Shown here piece by piece: positions 3,972-26,207 of a DNA stretch of 64,000 bases. The stretch comes from Gemmatimonadota bacterium (GTDB lineage: Bacteria > Gemmatimonadota > Gemmatimonadetes > Gemmatimonadales > GWC2-71-9). A program made the position numbers and the translations under genes. The notes beneath the pieces are model-generated. The model was not told the DNA's origin and searched no databases. It saw only the letters and a program-made list of their open reading frames with translations. The stretch spans positions 1 to 64,000 of the forward strand of contig JAPULZ010000160.1 in NCBI GenBank assembly GCA_027294455.1, in the 5' to 3' direction. Within the stretch, counting starts at the first letter, position 1; each line of letters begins with the position of its first letter.

Positions 3972-6616
3972 ACCTGGGACACCGCGGGCGCGTCCTTCAA
4001 GGCGGCTTGCGCCGCCGCCAGTCGGGCGATGGGAACGCGAAACGGCGAACACGAGACGTAGTTCATTCCGGCTTCGTGAAAGAACCGGATGGAGCGCGGA
4101 TCCCCTCCGTGCTCTCCGCAGATGCCGATCTTCAGTTTCGGATTGGTTTCGCGTCCCAGTCGGATCCCGGTTTCCACCAGGGCTCCCACGCCATCCCGGT
4201 CGATTGTTTGAAACGGGTTGTCTGGAATGATCCCGAATTCCACGTACGCGGGCAGGAACCGACCGGCATCGTCCCGCGACAACCCGAGTGTGGTCTGGGT
4301 GAGATCGTTCGTTCCGAAGGAGAAAAACTCAGCCGTCTCGGCGATCTTGTCCGCCGTCAACGCGGCACGGGGAAGCTCGATCATCGTACCCAGCAGGTAC
4401 TCCACGTGTCTACCGCGGCGTGCAAACACCTGCTCGGCCGTCGCTCTGACCACCGACGCCTGGCGGTCGAATTCCTCGGCGAAGCCCACCAGGGGGACCA
4501 TCACCTCCGGCATGACCTCGATGCCGTCGTCGGCGACGTCGCAAGCCGCCTCGAAGATGGCCTCGGCCTGCATCTCGGTGATCTCCGGGAAAGTGATGCC
4601 CAGGCGGCACCCGCGGTGGCCCAGCATCGGGTTGACCTCGGTCAACACGCTGATGAAATTGCGCAGCTCTTCAAATCCCACACCGATGGTGTCCGCCAAC
4701 CGCTTGATCTCTTCGTCGGTCTTTGGAAGGAACTCGTGTAGCGGGGGATCCAGCAATCGGATCGTGACGGGCCGTCCATCCATTGCGCGGAAGAGCCCCA
4801 CGAAGTCGCCCCGCTGGATCGGAAGGAGCCGGCCGAGGGCCTTGCGCCGTCCCGCGAGATTCTTCGCCACGATCATCTCCCGCACGATCTCGATGCGGCC
4901 TTCTTCAAAAAACATGTGTTCGGTGCGGCAGAGGCCGATTCCCTCGGCACCGAACTCCACGGCGCGAGCGGCATCGGCCGGCGTGTCGGCGTTGGCGCGA
5001 ACCCTGAGCATCCTGAATTTGTCCGCCCACTGCATGAGCTGCTCGAAGTGCTCGCCCGGCGCCGGCGCGGTCAGGGTTACCGAGCCGGCGATGACACGCC
5101 CGCTCGACCCGTCGATGGTGATCCAATCGTCTTCCGCGACCATCCGGCCGTTGACCTCGAACCGCCGATGTGCTTCGTCCACGTGCACTTCCTTGCACCC
5201 CGCCACGCACGCTTTGCCGATGCCCCGCGCGACGACCGCCGCATGGCTCGTCATGCCGCCGCGTTCGGTGAGAATGGCCTCAGCTGCGAGCATGCCGTGA
5301 AAGTCATCGGGGTTCGTCTCGCGCCGCACGAGAATCACCGGTTCGCCGTCGGCGCCGCGTTCGGCGGCCGTGTCGGCGTCGAACACCACGCGGCCCACCG
5401 CCGCCCCCGGCGAGGCCGGGAGCCCGGTGGCCAGCACGTCCACTTCCAGGTCCGGGTCGATGGTGGGATGCAGCAACCGCTCGAGCTGATCCGGATCGAC
5501 GCGCCCAACGGCGTCTTGCTCCGAGAGCAACGCTTCGGCGACCATGTCCACCGCCACGCGGACGGCGGCCTGGGCGCTGCGCTTGGCGCCACGGGTCTGC
5601 AACAAGTACAGCTTCCCGCGCTCCACCGTGAACTCGATGTCCTGCACGTCCCGAAAATGTCGCTCCAGCATGCGGCCCATCTCGCGGAGTTGCCCCTCGA
5701 TGCCCGGCCAGATCTTGGTCATCGCCGAGATCGGTTCGGGCGTGCGCGTGCCGGCGACGACGTCCTCTCCCTGGGCGTTCGGGAGAAATTCGCCGAACAG
5801 AGTCGGCTCCCCCGTTGATGGATTGCGCGTGAACACGACGCCGGTGCCCGAGTCTTCCCCCATGTTGCCGTAGACCATGGCCACCACGTTCACCGCCGTC
5901 CCCACCGCGTCGCCGATGTGGTGGGCGCGCCGATACGCCATCGCGCGCTTGGTGTTCCAGCTCCGGAAGACCGCCTCGACGGCACCCCAGAGCTGCTCCC
6001 ACGGGTCGTCGGGAAAAACCTTCCCGGTCTCGTCATGGATCACGCGCTTGATGGTTTGGACCAACTCGGCGAGGTCGGCGGGGTCCAGGTCGATCTCCCG
6101 CTCCACGCCGCGGAGGCGCTTCAGCTCCTCGGTGGCGTGCTCGATGGGGCTCTCCTCGTTCGCGGCCGTCAATCCGAACACCACCTCCCCGTACATCTGC
6201 GCGAACCGGCGATACGAATCGTACGCAAATGCCGGGTTGGCCGATTGGGCGGCGAGGGCTTCCACGGTGGTGTCGTTGAGACCGAGGTTCAGGATGGTGT
6301 CCATCATTCCGGGCATGGACACGGGAGCCCCGGAGCGGACGGACACGAGCAGGGGAGCCTCGGCTCCACCAAGGTCGCGGCCGGTGACCGATTCCAACTG
6401 AGCCACGGCCGTCGTCACATCCGACCGCAGGTCGTCCGGCAAGCGTCGTTCCCGCAAATAGGGGCTGCAGAGGGTGGCGGAAATGGTAAAGCCCGGCGGA
6501 ACGGGTATCCCCAGGCGAGTCATTTCGTGCAGGTTGGCGCCCTTGCCGCCGAGCACGTCTTTCATCTGGGCGGACCCATCGGCCTGCCCATTGCCAAAAA
6601 AGAAGACTGTTTGCAT
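3968..6616 (-). CDS. ppdK: Pyruvate, phosphate dikinase
   Basis: Cytoplasmic enzyme interconverting pyruvate + ATP + Pi with PEP + AMP + PPi, for gluconeogenesis or PPi-linked glycolysis. It has 882 residues, the normal family length. The N-terminal ATP-grasp part opens MQTVFFFGNGQADG. The phosphohistidine domain carries TERGGMTSHAAVVARG with His458. The C-terminal PEP-binding barrel ends with GICGEHGGDP, Cys833. These match His455 and Cys831 of the classic Clostridium symbiosum enzyme. An in-frame ATG lies 37 codons upstream, but it falls inside purF and adds no family sequence, so the later Met is preferred. The gene begins 11 bases after purF and is the last of the lexA-purine block. No PPDK regulatory kinase is nearby. 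Confidence 0.96.
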   Translation of the reverse strand: MQTVFFFGNGQADGSAQMKDVLGGKGANLHEMTRLGIPVPPGFTISATLCSPYLRERRLPDDLRSDVTTAVAQLESVTGRDLGGAEAPLLVSVRSGAPVSMPGMMDTILNLGLNDTTVEALAAQSANPAFAYDSYRRFAQMYGEVVFGLTAANEESPIEHATEELKRLRGVEREIDLDPADLAELVQTIKRVIHDETGKVFPDDPWEQLWGAVEAVFRSWNTKRAMAYRRAHHIGDAVGTAVNVVAMVYGNMGEDSGTGVVFTRNPSTGEPTLFGEFLPNAQGEDVVAGTRTPEPISAMTKIWPGIEGQLREMGRMLERHFRDVQDIEFTVERGKLYLLQTRGAKRSAQAAVRVAVDMVAEALLSEQDAVGRVDPDQLERLLHPTIDPDLEVDVLATGLPASPGAAVGRVVFDADTAAERGADGEPVILVRRETNPDDFHGMLAAEAILTERGGMTSHAAVVARGIGKACVAGCKEVHVDEAHRRFEVNGRMVAEDDWITIDGSSGRVIAGSVTLTAPAPGEHFEQLMQWADKFRMLRVRANADTPADAARAVEFGAEGIGLCRTEHMFFEEGRIEIVREMIVAKNLAGRRKALGRLLPIQRGDFVGLFRAMDGRPVTIRLLDPPLHEFLPKTDEEIKRLADTIGVGFEELRNFISVLTEVNPMLGHRGCRLGITFPEITEMQAEAIFEAACDVADDGIEVMPEVMVPLVGFAEEFDRQASVVRATAEQVFARRGRHVEYLLGTMIELPRAALTADKIAETAEFFSFGTNDLTQTTLGLSRDDAGRFLPAYVEFGIIPDNPFQTIDRDGVGALVETGIRLGRETNPKLKIGICGEHGGDPRSIRFFHEAGMNYVSCSPFRVPIARLAAAQAALKDAPAVSQV

Positions 6617-19156: not shown

Positions 19157-20878
19157 GTGTCGCGTGAATTCGTCATGCCGGTGGAGGCGAGTATCGGAGT
19201 GACGAGCCAGCGGGTCGAGGAGTCCGGTGGAGGAGGCGATCTCGCGGTCATCGAGGCTCTGGTGCAGAGCCTCGTCAAGGCGCTCCGGGCCGTTCAGCTC
19301 TATCTGCCCAACAATCCCATGTACGAGCAGGCCCTGAAGAACGTCACCGCGGCGTTCGAGGAAGTCTGGCGGGTCACCAAGGAACTTCCCCTGGAAATCA
19401 CCGACACGGAAATGCGCTGGGAGGAGGATGTGGTCTATTCCCAGCCCAGCAGGTCGGAAAGCGTCGCCTGGATGCTGCACCAGGACGGAATGAGCGGGGT
19501 CACGTTCTTCCCGGGAGTAGAGCAGGACGAAATCGTGCGTTTTCTCGTCGTGGTCAACCGCGTCCGGACACTGCCCCCTGACGCCGAAGACGATCTGCTG
19601 ACCATTCTGTGGGAAGAGGAATTCAAGTACCTGCGCTACACCGCGATCGAGGCCCAGGACGACGACGAAGGAGTCATCGAGCGGAGCGGTGAAGCGGCAC
19701 CGGTTGCGGAATCGGTGCGCCGTGAATTGCAGCAGGAGGTTGCGGAGGCGGCCCACAACTTCGTGTCAATCGATGATTTCGACGCCGGGTTGTACAGACT
19801 GGAGCCCGCCGAGGTCGCCTACCTCAAGAGCGAGCTCTCGCGGGAGTACGACCAAGACCTGCGCGCAAATGTTCTCGCCATCCTCTTCGACATCTTCGAA
19901 GCACAAAAGGACTCTGACGTCCGGACCGAAGTCATCGAGATCATGAACCGGTTCGTACCGCACCTGTTGGCCGCCGGCGACCCGACATCGGTGATGTACG
20001 TCCTCCGGGAGTCGCGGGTCATCCGCGACCGCGCCGAGGAGCTGCTCGAGGAGCATGCGAAGGCGCTCGAAGAGCTGCCGGCGAAACTGTCGGATCCCGA
20101 CACGTTCGGGCGGCTGATGCAGGCTCTGGAGGACGGGGGCGAGGGGCTCAACGACGAGGAATTGGAACACCTCTTCGCCGGTCTGCGCCCCAAGATCTTC
20201 GACGCGGCATTGGAGTGGCTCCCGCGTTTGAGTAAACGGATGTGTTCGTTGCTGGAGGACGCACTGTTGAAGATGGCGATCGCCAAACCCGAAGTCTTGA
20301 CATCCGCCCTGAGCGCCAGCCAAGACGAGGTCGTGCGGATGGCGGTGCGGTTTGCGCGAACGTTGGTATCGCCCGCGGTGGTCCCCCACCTCGGGCGCTT
20401 GTTCGGACATGCGGACACACAACTTCGAGCCGAGGTGGTGAAGGTTCTGGATGTCTACGGGACGTCGGAGGCGATGAATGAGCTCGAACACGCCCTCGAG
20501 GACCAGGATCGGGAGATCCGGATCGCGGCCGTGCGCGGCCTCGCCAAGCATCGGCACGAGCACGTGCTTGCCACGCTCGAGGCGATGGTGTCCGAAGGGG
20601 GCCTCAAGGATGCGGACCTCACCGAAAAGAAGGCTTTCTTCGAGGCCTACGGCGTGTTGGCGGGAGCCTCCGGCATCGAGCGTCTCACGACCATGCTGTT
20701 GCCCCGGGGATTCATGCGCCGGAAAGAGGATCCCCAGACGCGCGCGTGTGCCGCGATGGCGCTGGGAACCATCGGGACTGACGAAGCGCTGGATGCCTTG
20801 AAGCGGACGGGGAACGATAAGGACCCGCTCGTGCGCAACGCGGTGAATCAGGCCATTCGGGAGCACACCACCAAATGA
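19157..20878 (+). CDS. HEAT-repeat protein with N-terminal domain shared with the adjacent HD-GYP protein
   Basis: Soluble protein of up to 573 residues with no signal peptide. Residues about 25-165 form an alpha/beta domain containing LVKALRAVQLYLPNNPMYEQAL. The equivalent segment of the next gene reads [22 protein letters not shown], so the two proteins share an N-terminal domain. From about 200 on it is helical, with HEAT-like repeats such as DREIRIAAVRGLAKHRHEHVLATL and DPQTRACAAMALGTIGTDEAL. These are protein-protein scaffolds. The stop overlaps the HD-GYP start by ATGA. No enzyme motif is seen, so a scaffold or adaptor role in this signalling trio is inferred. The start could be this GTG or the ATG 18 bases later; neither has a Shine-Dalgarno sequence. 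Confidence 0.8.
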   Translation: MSREFVMPVEASIGVTSQRVEESGGGGDLAVIEALVQSLVKALRAVQLYLPNNPMYEQALKNVTAAFEEVWRVTKELPLEITDTEMRWEEDVVYSQPSRSESVAWMLHQDGMSGVTFFPGVEQDEIVRFLVVVNRVRTLPPDAEDDLLTILWEEEFKYLRYTAIEAQDDDEGVIERSGEAAPVAESVRRELQQEVAEAAHNFVSIDDFDAGLYRLEPAEVAYLKSELSREYDQDLRANVLAILFDIFEAQKDSDVRTEVIEIMNRFVPHLLAAGDPTSVMYVLRESRVIRDRAEELLEEHAKALEELPAKLSDPDTFGRLMQALEDGGEGLNDEELEHLFAGLRPKIFDAALEWLPRLSKRMCSLLEDALLKMAIAKPEVLTSALSASQDEVVRMAVRFARTLVSPAVVPHLGRLFGHADTQLRAEVVKVLDVYGTSEAMNELEHALEDQDREIRIAAVRGLAKHRHEHVLATLEAMVSEGGLKDADLTEKKAFFEAYGVLAGASGIERLTTMLLPRGFMRRKEDPQTRACAAMALGTIGTDEALDALKRTGNDKDPLVRNAVNQAIREHTTK

Positions 20879-22338
20879 CCGACTCACGCCGTTCCCTCGC
20901 CGATGTCGTTGAACGCATCGAATCGGTTCACCGACAACAAGGACGCGTGTTTCTCGTCAGCCTCGGCGCGGCGCTACGCAGCCTGAAGTTGTATCCGTTG
21001 GAAAACGAGCAGGTGCAGCGGGCTCTCAACGATCTCGTCGAAGGCGCGCGGGCGCTGCATCAGGTGGATCCCGTACTGAAGATGCAGGTCGCCGGCGAGT
21101 TCGTGTTCATCAACAAGACACGACTGCGGTTGGCGTTGGACCAATACGCCTCGTTGGGCCATGTCCTCAACACGTTCGCCGAAGGCCGACTCGGGACGCT
21201 GAGCGTCGATGAGGCGGTCAGTCGAAACGAATGGCAGGAATTGGTCAAGGTGCTCCTCGACGCCGAACCGCCGGAAGGGAACAGCGAAGGCAACGCGGTG
21301 CGGCTCCAGTCGATGCTGGAAGATCAGGGAGTGACGCACATCTTCTTGGGGCCTCCGATGCAGGCACCGCAGGAACTCGACGCCGAGGAACGCTCCAAGG
21401 AGCTGGCGCGGAGGACCTATCAAAAATCCGTCGCGGTCACGAAAGACGTGGTCAACGGCATGCGCATGGGTCGTGGAGCCAATGTGCGGAGGATGAAACG
21501 CGCGGTGCAGGGCATCGTGGATCAGGTCCTCAATAACGAGGTCTCGCTCACCGGTCTCACCGCCATACGCGACTACGACGAGTACACGTTCACCCATTCC
21601 GTCAACGTGTGCATCTTCAGCGTGGCCATCGGCAAGCGGCTGGGCCTGAGCAAGCGCCAGCTGTACGATTTGGGCGTCGCCGCCCTGCTGCACGACGTGG
21701 GCAAGAGTCGGGTTCCGCTGGAACTCATGCACAAGGAAGCCGCACTCACCGAGGAAGAGTGGCATGTGATGCAATCGCATCCGTGGTATGGCGTGTTGGC
21801 ATTGTTCCAGATGCAGCAAACAGGCGACTTGCCCTACCGGGGTATGATCACGGCGTACGAACACCATATGAAGATCGGGGTGACGGGATATCCGCGGCCG
21901 ATTCGGCGACGCAACCTCTCCCTGTACTCCAAGATCGTGGCGGTGGCCGACGGATTCGACGCCGCCACGAGCCGCAGGACGTATCAACGCGCCATCCAAC
22001 CCGACGAGGTGTTGCGCGAGATGTGGCAGAACCGGCGTCGGGGGTACGACCCGGTGTTGGTCAAGGAGCTCGTCAATCTCGTGGGGATCTACCCCGTGGG
22101 CAGCTGCCTCATTCTGGACACGCGGGAGATCGTGGTCGTGCAGAGCCGCAATCCCGATCCCGCCATGCTGAACCGGCCCATGACGGTACTCGCGGTGTCG
22201 AGCGACGGGCAGGTGCAGCGCGATGGAGCCACAATCGACCTGTCCGAGAAAACGGCCGCCGGCGCATTCAAGCGATCGATCCTGAAGGTGACCGACCCTG
22301 CGAAATACGGAATCAGGCCTGGTGACTTCCTCATCTGA
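20875..22338 (+). CDS. HD-GYP-type phosphodiesterase with variant GYP motif
   Basis: Product of 487 residues. The N-terminal domain (about 20-130) is shared with the preceding HEAT protein. The HD-GYP domain spans about 225-420: [20 protein letters not shown], the HD pair His273-Asp274 in [20 protein letters not shown] at 330-331 and [15 protein letters not shown]. The canonical HHExxDGxGYP here reads [11 protein letters not shown]. The Glu and Asp are lost while GYP stays. The family hydrolyses cyclic-di-GMP to GMP or pGpG; the altered motif could mean a two-metal enzyme, another substrate or weak activity. A C-terminal 70-residue beta-rich tail follows. It overlaps both neighbours, so it is made together with them. 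Confidence 0.88.
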
Positions 22339-24454
22339 GTTCGGCGGGCGCCTGACCAAGGTTTCCGCGGCAACCCTCGTCGAGGGGTTCTCGTGGACAC
22401 TGGCGGTGGGCGGACCCCTCATGCTTCTGGCCAGCCTCGTGTTGGATACCCATTGGATTCGCCAGTTGCACTTTGTGCTGTTGATGACGGTCATCACCGT
22501 GGGGATGCGCACGCTCACCGTGCCGCTGGGCAAGTATTCCTATGTGTCGCCCGCGGGCATCGTGTCGCTCACGGGAGCGCTACTCGTGGGTATTGTGCCG
22601 ACCATGCTGGCGGTATCGGCCGGCACGGCCCTCGCCGACTGGGCCATTCAGCGCAAGGGACGATGGGCGGTGCTGGTCAACGCAGGCCGGGAGATGGTGG
22701 GGCTCGCCGCGGCGTACGGTGTCTTCGCCGCGGCGCTGGCCGTTTCCGGCGAGGTCAGCCCGCTCACCTGGAACGGCGCCACGGCCCTCGCGTTGTTCGT
22801 ACTCAGCTTCTTTGCCGCCTCGCGATCGCTATTCTATTTCACCTTGGCGGCTCGGGGAAAGCTCGGTCCGGACGAACAGCGGCTCATCCTGCGCTACGAG
22901 ATCGTCACGGGGGCCATTCTCGTGGTGGCCTCGATCGTCATCGTCGTCACCGTCCTGGAGCTACCGCCGTTGGCCTGGCCGTTCGTGGTGGCCACCCTGA
23001 CCTTCGTCGGTGTGATGGCCAAGCAGATCGCCGAAGAAGCGGTGCAGGCCGAGGAGCTCAACAAGCTGCACGCGATGGACGCCGTCATTACCGGCACCGC
23101 CGGGCTTGACGATTCCCTCGCACGGATCGAAAAACTGGCGTATCGCACGCTCGACTGGACGGTCTTGCGCATCTACGCATACCGCGACAAGCGGTTCGTT
23201 TTGCTCTATCAGGGCGCCATGGGCCAACCGGGTGCGGAGCCCGCCGAAGGATTGGCAGTGCTGCGCGAAGATGCGGTGACGACTGGCCAGTCGGTCGTCG
23301 TGGATGACACCTCGCGCGATGCCCGGACGTTGGACTTTCCCGACGACACGAAGACGGTGGTGGTCACCCCGCTGCAGCTGGGCGCCGAGATGATCGGCAC
23401 CCTGGAGGTCGAGCATCACAAACGCAAGGAGTACCAGCGCATCCAGCTGGCCCTCCTCGAGGCGTGCGCGTACCGCATCGCGACCGTCGTGCATATTCAC
23501 GACTTGCGCCGACCGCTCGTGGCCACCGTCGCTCGCATCAGCAAGGAGGTCGGCAATCTGCGCTATGCTGCCGACGCCCTCCGCTCAGCGGCCGCGGCCA
23601 TGACGGCATCCACCACCGCCATCGGTGATGGACTGTCGCAGCAGGATCTGGAGGTCGCCGAAGGGTTTTCGGAAACGGAGCGTCTCTCGCACGCGGCGGC
23701 GGAGGTGGTTGTCGATGGAGCGGAAGCCGCCGCCGCCAGCGCCGCTGCGAGCGACGTGGCCGGGCGCAGCCGCGAAACCATTCGGGACGCCATCGAAAAG
23801 CTGGTGGAGCTAAAGGGGTTCGTCGCGGAGAGCTCCGACAAGGTGGCGGAGCTCGAGCGGGTCAGCAAGAAGATCGTGCGCTTCATTGCCTCGATTCGCG
23901 AATTGGCCGATCTGACCAACCTGCTGGCACTCAACGCCGGGATCGAGGCGGCCCGGGCCGGGGAACAGGGGAAGGGATTCGCCGTCGTCGCACAGGAAGT
24001 GCGAAGGCTGGCGGAGCAGAGCGGCTCGGCGGCGGGCGAGGCCGGCGACTTCATCGGCGACTTGCAATTGCGTCTCGCCGAAGTGGTCGAGCAGATGCGC
24101 CGGGGCACCATTGCCGTCGCCGACGTCGAAGAAGTCAGCACCGAGGGTCTCGCAGCGCTCGACTCGATCGTGCAGGCCACCGCCGAATCCACGCGGCGGG
24201 CCCGCCACATCGCCGAGACCGCCGAGGGGCAACAGAGCGCGTTCACCGGGTTGCGAGAGCGCATGAGTGCGGTGGCCGAGATCTCCTCCCGCAATCGCGC
24301 CGACGCCGCGGCCGTCGGGTTGCGCGCCAAGGACGTGGAGGGGCGCCTCGACGAGATGAGCCACGCGACCCGCGAGCTCGAAGGCGTGGCCTCGATGCTG
24401 GCCGAACTCACCCACCGATTCACCACGGCGGACGTGCAGGGCGGGCCACGGTGA
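22322..24454 (+). CDS. Membrane GAF-domain methyl-accepting-chemotaxis-like signal transducer
   Basis: Product of 710 residues with a GTG start that overlaps the HD-GYP gene by 17 bases. The first 235 residues hold about six hydrophobic helices instead of a periplasmic ligand domain. A GAF-like sensor lies at about 250-400 ([35 protein letters not shown]). A long coiled coil follows, with the MCP hairpin at about 527-560, [19 protein letters not shown] and [18 protein letters not shown]. This part would contact CheW/CheA. No C-terminal CheR-docking pentapeptide and no che genes are visible. It may sense the membrane or cytoplasm and feed a chemosensory array or, through its operon partners, cyclic-di-GMP. 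Confidence 0.88.
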
Positions 24455-24488
24455 CAACGCCGTGCCCCACCGCGCCCATTCTCGCGCA

Positions 24489-24866
24489 ATGACCAACGAT
24501 CGTATCTCACTCAAGGCCATGCGGTTTCACACCCTTGTCGGGCTGCTGCCCCACGAGGAGCACGTGCCCCAACCGCTCGAGCTCGATTTGACCGTGTGGT
24601 TGTCGTTGCGCCGCGTAGGGGAATCGGATTCCCCCGCCGCCCTGCTGGATTACCGCGATCTGTACAAGATGGTGTCGGAAACGGTTGGCACCAGCCCGCA
24701 CAGATTGTTGGAGGCGCTGTGCGAACGCATCGCGGCCAAGGCCCTGGCCATGGAGCACGTGCGTCGCGTGCGTGTGGCGGCACGAAAGCCCCACGTCCCA
24801 ATCGATGGACCGCTCGACTATGTCGAGGTCGTGGTCGAACGCGGCGAGGACCACGTCGATGGGTGA
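24489..24866 (+). CDS. folB: Dihydroneopterin aldolase
   Basis: Folate pathway enzyme converting dihydroneopterin to 6-hydroxymethyl-dihydropterin and glycolaldehyde. The product has 125 residues. ISLKAMRFHTLVGLLPHE is the family opening, LLDYRDLYKMV the middle motif, and ARKPHVPIDGPLDYVEVVVE the end with the conserved lysine. An in-frame start 9 codons earlier has no family match. It follows the MCP gene by 34 bases and overlaps the next gene by 8 bases. The next gene's first domain uses FolB's product. Confidence 0.93.
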   Translation: MTNDRISLKAMRFHTLVGLLPHEEHVPQPLELDLTVWLSLRRVGESDSPAALLDYRDLYKMVSETVGTSPHRLLEALCERIAAKALAMEHVRRVRVAARKPHVPIDGPLDYVEVVVERGEDHVDG

Positions 24867-25812
24867 GTGGGCCTTCGTCGCACTCGGGTCAAACGTCGGT
24901 GACCGCGCAGCGCATCTCGAGGCAGGCCGCCACAAACTCGCCACCCTTCCCAGGACGGCCGTGCTCGCCGAGAGCACGATCGAAGAAACGGTCCCGATCG
25001 GGCCGGTGAAGCAGGGTAAGTTCCTCAATCAGATGGTGCTGCTGGACACCGAACAGGCCCCGACGGAAATCCTCGAGGCGGCCCAGGCCGCCGAGCGGGA
25101 AACGGGCCGCGTCCGGGAAGATCGGTGGGGACCTCGCACCCTGGACGTCGACATCGTTCGATTCGGCGATCGCAACATTCGCAGGTCCGACTTGACGGTT
25201 CCGCATCCCGAGCTGGCGCGGCGACCTTTCTGGTTGCGCGAGCACACCGAGCTGCTCGCGACGGTCAACCAGGATGGCGTGCCCGCATGGGCACAGATCA
25301 AGCCGTCACGCCAGGCGCACATCCAGCGGGTGGCAGCACTGGTGGAGACCTGGGCCATTGCGATGGGTAAGAGCGTCGATGAGCGTGCACGATGGACACG
25401 GGCCGCGTTCATGCACGACGCCGTGCGTGACGCGCCGACGGAGGAGCTCGCACGTTGGTCGGACCGCCGTTGGGACATTCCCAAACTCTTCCATGGTCCG
25501 GCGGCCGCGATGTTGGCCGCTGAACATGGTGAGACCGACCGGGGCGTCTTGAACGCGATACGGTTTCACTCGCTAGGATACGCGGGTTGGGATGATGCCG
25601 GTCGGATGCTCTACATGGCGGACTATCTCGAACCGGGGCGAACCTTCAAGCGAAAACGCAGCGCTAAGTTGGCCGCCCGGGTCCCGCAAGATTCTCAGGG
25701 AGTTTTGATTCACGTCGTGCGAAAACGGTTTCAATGGGCCATAGAGCAAAAAAGAAAAATTCTCCCAGAAGCCGCCGAATTCTGGAACGGCGTCGTCCCG
25801 GCCTCTTCCTAG
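24859..25812 (+). CDS. folK: Fused FolK pyrophosphokinase and YqeK-type HD hydrolase
   Basis: Single frame of 317 residues carrying two normally separate enzymes. Residues 1-135 are HPPK (FolK): VALGSNVGDR, VPIGPVKQGKFLNQMV, the signature RWGPRTLDVDIVRFG and PHPELARRPFWL. They transfer pyrophosphate from ATP to hydroxymethyl-dihydropterin. Residues 150-310 are a YqeK-like HD domain with metal ligands His154, His186-Asp187 (FMHDAVRD), His212, His237 and Asp255 (LYMADYLEPGRTF). Known YqeK proteins split Ap4A symmetrically into two ADP. YqeK is usually encoded next to nadD and a LytR_C gene; here LytR_C is present but FolK takes nadD's place. The start overlaps folB by 8 bases. Confidence 0.88.
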   Translation: MGEWAFVALGSNVGDRAAHLEAGRHKLATLPRTAVLAESTIEETVPIGPVKQGKFLNQMVLLDTEQAPTEILEAAQAAERETGRVREDRWGPRTLDVDIVRFGDRNIRRSDLTVPHPELARRPFWLREHTELLATVNQDGVPAWAQIKPSRQAHIQRVAALVETWAIAMGKSVDERARWTRAAFMHDAVRDAPTEELARWSDRRWDIPKLFHGPAAAMLAAEHGETDRGVLNAIRFHSLGYAGWDDAGRMLYMADYLEPGRTFKRKRSAKLAARVPQDSQGVLIHVVRKRFQWAIEQKRKILPEAAEFWNGVVPASS

Positions 25813-26207
25813 CCGGCGGCTCCGCCGGAGCCCTGGTGCTCGCGTTGGGCGTCTGGTGGTCTGTCGGGGGCGGCACCGTCGATACGGCCCCCCTGGTCAT
25901 CCCCGGGGAGCGCAGTCGGATCAAGGTGGAAGTGCTCAACGGCACGACCATCGATGGATTGGCCCGCCGGACGACTCAGAAGCTTCGCGAACATGGAGTG
26001 GACGTCGTCTTCTTCGGATCGGCCTCCAATTCCACTACCGATTTGACGTTGGTGATCGCCCGGCGGGGTGATCCCTCGGCCGCCGCGCACGTGCGTGACG
26101 TACTTGGGGTGGGGCAGGTGACGGACGAACCGGCGGCTCAGCTGCTGCTGGACGTCACGGTCATCCTCGGCCGGGACGCCGACGCTTCCGTCTCGACGCG
26201 CAACTGA
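25734..26207 (+). CDS. LytR_C-domain membrane protein
   Basis: Product of 157 residues. A very basic N terminus (RAKKKNSPRSRRILERRRPG) leads into one membrane helix at about 24-44, so the rest faces out. The C-terminal 90 residues match the LytR_C domain: IKVEVLNGTTIDGLARRTTQKL and TDLTLVIARRGDPSAA. The domain accompanies LCP (LytR-CpsA-Psr) envelope proteins, but no LCP catalytic domain is here. The gene overlaps the folK-yqeK end by 79 bases in the -1 frame. This start is favoured because the basic stretch plus helix form a sensible anchor. Its own 3' end overlaps convergent rlmN by 70 bases. A yqeK-LytR_C neighbourhood is common in bacteria. Confidence 0.82.
   Translation: MGHRAKKKNSPRSRRILERRRPGLFLAGGSAGALVLALGVWWSVGGGTVDTAPLVIPGERSRIKVEVLNGTTIDGLARRTTQKLREHGVDVVFFGSASNSTTDLTLVIARRGDPSAAAHVRDVLGVGQVTDEPAAQLLLDVTVILGRDADASVSTRN

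Follow-up and report, generated by a model that had tools for sequence, protein, structure and literature searches.

In the window analyzed here, the 64,000 nucleotides at positions 1 to 64,000 of contig JAPULZ010000160.1 of a Gemmatimonadota bacterium, a single open frame (24859..25812, forward strand; 317 amino acids) joins FolK, the HPPK of folate synthesis, to a YqeK-like HD domain. This FolK–YqeK fusion is genuine and both of its halves are complete domains. Comparison with related genomes suggests that it is the product of gene-order decay, in which panB and panC, the two vitamin B5 genes that once lay between folK and yqeK, were lost. A chance outcome of gene order is likelier than a new link between folate and an alarmone. 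The sequence-only reading treated such a fusion as not known to be described, and our search of the open-licence literature likewise found no description of a FolK–YqeK or HPPK plus HD-domain fusion. Both enzymes are known, but their combination is seemingly undescribed; it was found twice, both times in the same phylum.

Profile searches place the HPPK domain at residues 5–132 (24871..25254, forward strand). Residues 6–132 match Pfam HPPK (PF01288) with an E-value of 7.5e-30 and a score of 104.2 bits against a cut-off of 25.7, and the NCBIfam folK model TIGR01498 scores 117.2 bits, above its cut-off of 54.1. The YqeK-like HD domain occupies residues 146–312 (25294..25794, forward strand). Its residues 146–271 match the YqeK model TIGR00488 at an E-value of 4.9e-15 and 55.8 bits, below the curated equivalog cut-off of 70.15 bits, so that the domain is filed as YqeK-like, and Pfam HD gives 26.4 bits. 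The N-terminal half was also examined as a possible NadD and is HPPK instead; the NadD–YqeK model PRK07152 aligns only along its HD portion, at 43.7 bits against 315. Alignment to proteins of known structure divides the protein in the same way, with HPPK structures matching residues 3–143 and the YqeK structures 2o08, 3ccg, 8wmy, 2ogi and 8jja matching residues 146–314. An AlphaFold2 model built on an 85-sequence alignment (mean pLDDT 95.7, pTM 0.89) contains two folded domains, one agreeing with crystal structures of HPPK and the other with those of YqeK, the HD half superposing on 2ogi, 3ccg and 8wmy in Foldseek with a probability of 1.00 and TM scores of 0.72–0.76 by target length. Between the domains lies a linker at about residues 137–146 (25267..25296, forward strand), which is equally long in three members of the genus in alignment; residues 137–148 of the model are predicted to form neither helix nor strand. 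With this short linker the arrangement of the two domains is predicted with confidence, a reading of domain orientation that rests on the pTM. In the window genome, a draft that is 94% complete, the fused gene is the sole match to folK and also the sole match to yqeK.

The gene overlaps both of its neighbors. Upstream, folB, encoding dihydroneopterin aldolase (24462..24866, forward strand; Pfam FolB 2.6e-28), is a conserved neighbor that shares 8 bp with the fused gene. Downstream, a conserved gene for a LytR_C-domain protein (25734..26207, forward strand; Pfam LytR_C 3.2e-16) overlaps its 3′ end by 79 bp (25734–25812) in a different frame, an overlap also seen in the two congeneric genomes G226 and G272 (loci L035 and L036). 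Farther upstream, at 20875–24454, genes for an HD_5 (HD-GYP-like) protein and a GAF/MCP-signalling protein adjoin folB here and in much of the order; for signalling genes to be kept beside folate genes in this way is unusual.

The catalytic residues of HPPK and the metal-binding residues of YqeK are intact. All of the HPPK catalytic residues are present (N57, R84, R86, W90, R93, D96, D98, H116, and R122), the reference being the Mg- and substrate-binding residues of Escherichia coli HPPK (N55, R82, R84, W89, R92, D95, D97, H115, and R121), and across 42 FolKs these residues are invariant apart from R84 (41 of 42). In the HD half, the residues that had been proposed as metal ligands, His154, His186–Asp187, His212, His237, and Asp255, proved to be exact: they align with the metal ligands His29, His58–Asp59, His91, His117, and Asp135 of Streptococcus pyogenes YqeK (PMC11857287). 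Counted for relatives whose sequence spans the sites, all six ligands are kept in 47 of 47 YqeK rows, fused or unfused, which indicates that the role of YqeK predates the fusion and is independent of it. Two other positions differ from the reference. The catalytic Lys62 of the HDxxK motif is Arg190 in the window protein, a conservative change, and in the same alignment of 47 members 38 likewise carry R and the other 9 K. This replacement of HDxxK by HDxxR in most YqeK-like proteins of the phylum is a possible active-site variant of YqeK. The position of Thr183, which contacts ADP, is T in 41 of 47 sequences; the window protein has Ala305 there, and its two congeners with the fusion have Glu and Gly. 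Loss of this threonine was considered as a general mark of fusion and was rejected: the fused protein of Gemmatirosa kalamazoonensis retains its equivalent, and several unfused proteins have lost it (L044 has Met, L018 Ser, and L107, L117, and L124 Ala). Five further members that were scored against TIGR00488 gave 47.8–63.3 bits, all below 70.15. Judged by its sequence, then, the HD half belongs to a divergent, YqeK-like branch of the family. Because its score falls below the cut-off, Arg replaces Lys, and the threonine is lost in the genus, we infer Ap4A hydrolysis by this half as likely rather than assign it.

The draft window genome is fragmented into 254 contigs, and in most relatives the two genes are separate, so that a base or assembly error that removed a stop codon or shifted the frame between two genes would be a natural suspicion, and the sequence-only reading had pointed to residues 135–150 as the place to look for one. 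Comparative data leave this explanation with practically no likelihood and in effect rule it out. Two more species of the genus, G226 and G272, carry the same fused frame, with proteins 66 and 64% identical to that of the window. Alignments and junction DNA show that the junction is free of indels and of equal length in all three, and that the frame is unbroken even though the DNA has diverged to about 40% identity at third codon positions. Moreover, a folK–yqeK fusion is found on a multi-megabase contig of a fourth genome, G080, whose 1,106,233-base contig matches plasmid NZ_CP007129.1 at 100%, which identifies it as Gemmatirosa kalamazoonensis. The possibility that all relatives would prove to have separate genes is therefore likewise set aside. 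The fused gene was not matched in a fourth genome of the genus, which is 72% complete. A scan of genome contigs with two HPPK-side peptide patterns, which distant fusions would escape, gave full-length matches only in Gemmatimonadota. Within the genus both halves are under purifying selection, with dN of 0.21–0.30 in each and dS of at least 2 or saturated.

The junction DNA also bears on whether the cell makes a separate YqeK from an internal start, and thus contains both forms. In the window an in-frame GTG lies just before the residues PAW, with AGGA upstream. Among the three genus members, however, no start codon at the junction is conserved at one position: V136 is encoded by GTC in the window and by GTG in the other two, and the position of the window GTG is CTG or flanked by TTG in the others. 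We thus consider a conserved internal start rejected for these three junctions, and a second, separate form of YqeK very unlikely.

The origin of the fusion can be read from the gene order of its relatives. In most members of the same order the genes run folB–folK–panB–panC–yqeK–lytR_C–rlmN, the last on the opposite strand, with aspS and phoH beyond. At loci without panBC, folK and yqeK are adjacent and often overlap. In a tree built on concatenated FolK, YqeK, RlmN, FolB, and the upstream HD protein, panBC is absent from the locus about five times and the fusion appears twice. The window genus is monophyletic (support 1.0) and groups (0.91) with the pair L027 and L093, where the unfused folK and yqeK overlap, each in its own frame. 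Gemmatirosa belongs to another family and lies far from the window genus, its deeper placement being poorly supported (0.39). The distance between the two fusions on the tree argues that fusion arose twice. Intermediate states are preserved as well. At L018 (genome G119) panC stands alone, without panB, between folK and yqeK (677–1528), and at L110 an 82-residue C-terminal remnant of panC lies between them (about 4397–4692; Pantoate_ligase 2.1e-7), which is a trace of deletion. In genomes with fused or adjacent genes, the panBC found elsewhere are 39–50% identical to the locus type, compared with about 60–73% among the locus copies themselves; in G272 and G050 panBC were not found. On another contig (C39, 13771–15308; L066 and L075) the window genome has an adjacent panB–panC pair whose identities to the locus type are only 45% and 39%, which suggests that a distant pair replaced the locus type there. 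Together, these observations indicate that the locus lost its native panBC, with a distant pair elsewhere in some genomes; the order of events, panBC loss first, is read from the tree and the remnants, without a formal reconstruction. They also correct the earlier view that folK had here taken the place of nadD as the neighbor of yqeK. In this phylum yqeK ordinarily follows panC, and the fusion followed the loss of panBC; nadD is on another contig of the window genome (C81), and of the loci searched only its own contains it, while the window does not.

We therefore consider it probable that gene-order decay produced a real fusion in which two independent enzymes are tethered and made at a 1:1 ratio. 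According to this model, panB–panC would have been lost from the locus in several lineages, leaving folK and yqeK to abut or overlap, presumably with translational coupling, and the folK stop codon would then have been removed in frame in two independent events, one in the window genus and one in Gemmatirosa kalamazoonensis. The N-terminal half would make 6-hydroxymethyldihydropterin diphosphate from ATP, the nucleotide being expelled as AMP, as is established for HPPK. Like YqeK, the C-terminal HD half would most likely cleave Ap4A or a related dinucleotide or diphosphate. The activities of the halves, and their independence, are what we infer from their residues and relatives; the gain would be cotranslation at 1:1, and the fusion may well be nearly neutral. 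Two observations temper this reading. The fusion has lasted through divergence to about 65% protein identity and arose twice, a possible sign of an advantage. In addition, the YqeK half of the genus, having lost the ADP-contacting threonine, may not do exactly the ancestral job.

The sequence-only reading proposed that the fusion might tie folate synthesis to the removal of Ap4A; such a tie, in which the level or cleavage of Ap4A would regulate HPPK or the reverse, appears unlikely to us. Ap4A is an adenine dinucleotide and could occupy the ATP site of HPPK, and in the genomes with the fusion apaH was not found above cut-off, which may leave YqeK as their sole symmetrical Ap4A hydrolase of this kind. 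However, the metal site is equally conserved without fusion, gene order accounts for the joining, and the Ap4A activity is itself putative in a divergent group in which all members tested score below the TIGR00488 cut-off. The two fusions also lack a common domain arrangement. In the model of the Gemmatirosa protein the linker, which is longer than in the window genus, is predicted to be disordered (pLDDT below 50 at residues 145–149) and the pTM is 0.69, which together argue that no fixed architecture is shared. We thus find no positive evidence for a folate–alarmone link: metal sites are equal in unfused relatives, linkers differ, and the HD half is below the YqeK cut-off.

Comparable doubt attaches to the idea that the HD half serves FolK in proofreading or damage control, by removing wrong or inhibitory HPPK products such as diphosphorylated wrong pterins or adducts of pterin with adenosine phosphate. 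Here the NadD–YqeK fusion of mycoplasmas (PRK07152; JCVISYN3A_0380) offers a precedent: such a role was proposed for its YqeK domain, which in JCVI-Syn3A cleaves NaAD analogs and 8-oxo-GTP (PMC9426524). YqeK is a versatile diphosphatase, and replacement of the ADP-contacting threonine by A, E, or G in the fused genus would fit a change of substrate. Yet HPPK, unlike NadD, releases its nucleotide as AMP, such that a wrong NTP leaves no wrong product, and the metal site is no different in unfused YqeKs, those beside panC as well as those standing alone; both points weaken the proofreading reading. The threonine, moreover, is kept by Gemmatirosa and has also been lost in unfused L044, L107, L117, and L124. 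A narrower and less probable version, which we regard as speculative, is that the YqeK half of the genus alone took on a new job on the products or by-products of FolK, as a pterin-diphosphate or pterin-nucleotide hydrolase marked by the loss of the threonine, creating a self-editing folate enzyme.

The fusion can be compared with known systems. NadD–YqeK likewise places a small ATP-using biosynthetic enzyme N-terminal to a YqeK HD domain and has free-standing neighboring genes as its precursor. In contrast, the partner here is HPPK, whose product contains no nucleotide, the ancestral neighbor is panC rather than nadD, and the origin is separate. Free-standing YqeK, a symmetrical Ap4A hydrolase (COG1713, TIGR00488; 8wmy, 2o08, 3ccg, 2ogi, 8jja), shares the HD fold and the six metal-binding residues of the fused domain, which differs in falling below the equivalog cut-off, in having HDxxR in most members and Ala, Glu, or Gly for Thr183 in the genus, and in being fused to HPPK. 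As in the known FolK fusions, FolK–FolP (HPPK–DHPS), FolB–FolK, and FolB–FolK–FolP (PMC2994781, PMC4224340, PMC1971073; PDB 3mco, 2bmb, 2cg8), HPPK forms one half of a bifunctional protein. Those fusions, however, join consecutive folate enzymes, whereas YqeK lies outside the folate pathway.

The fusion thus adds, after NadD, a second biosynthetic partner for YqeK, and it flags a divergent, HDxxR-bearing branch of that family. It also carries a caution, because fusion alone is not enough to read metabolic coupling. Gemmatirosa kalamazoonensis is cultured and standard assays exist for both halves, so that the functional meaning is directly testable. Finally, the intermediates among these genomes show the route by which two genes became one, from loss of the intervening genes, through overlap, to joining.
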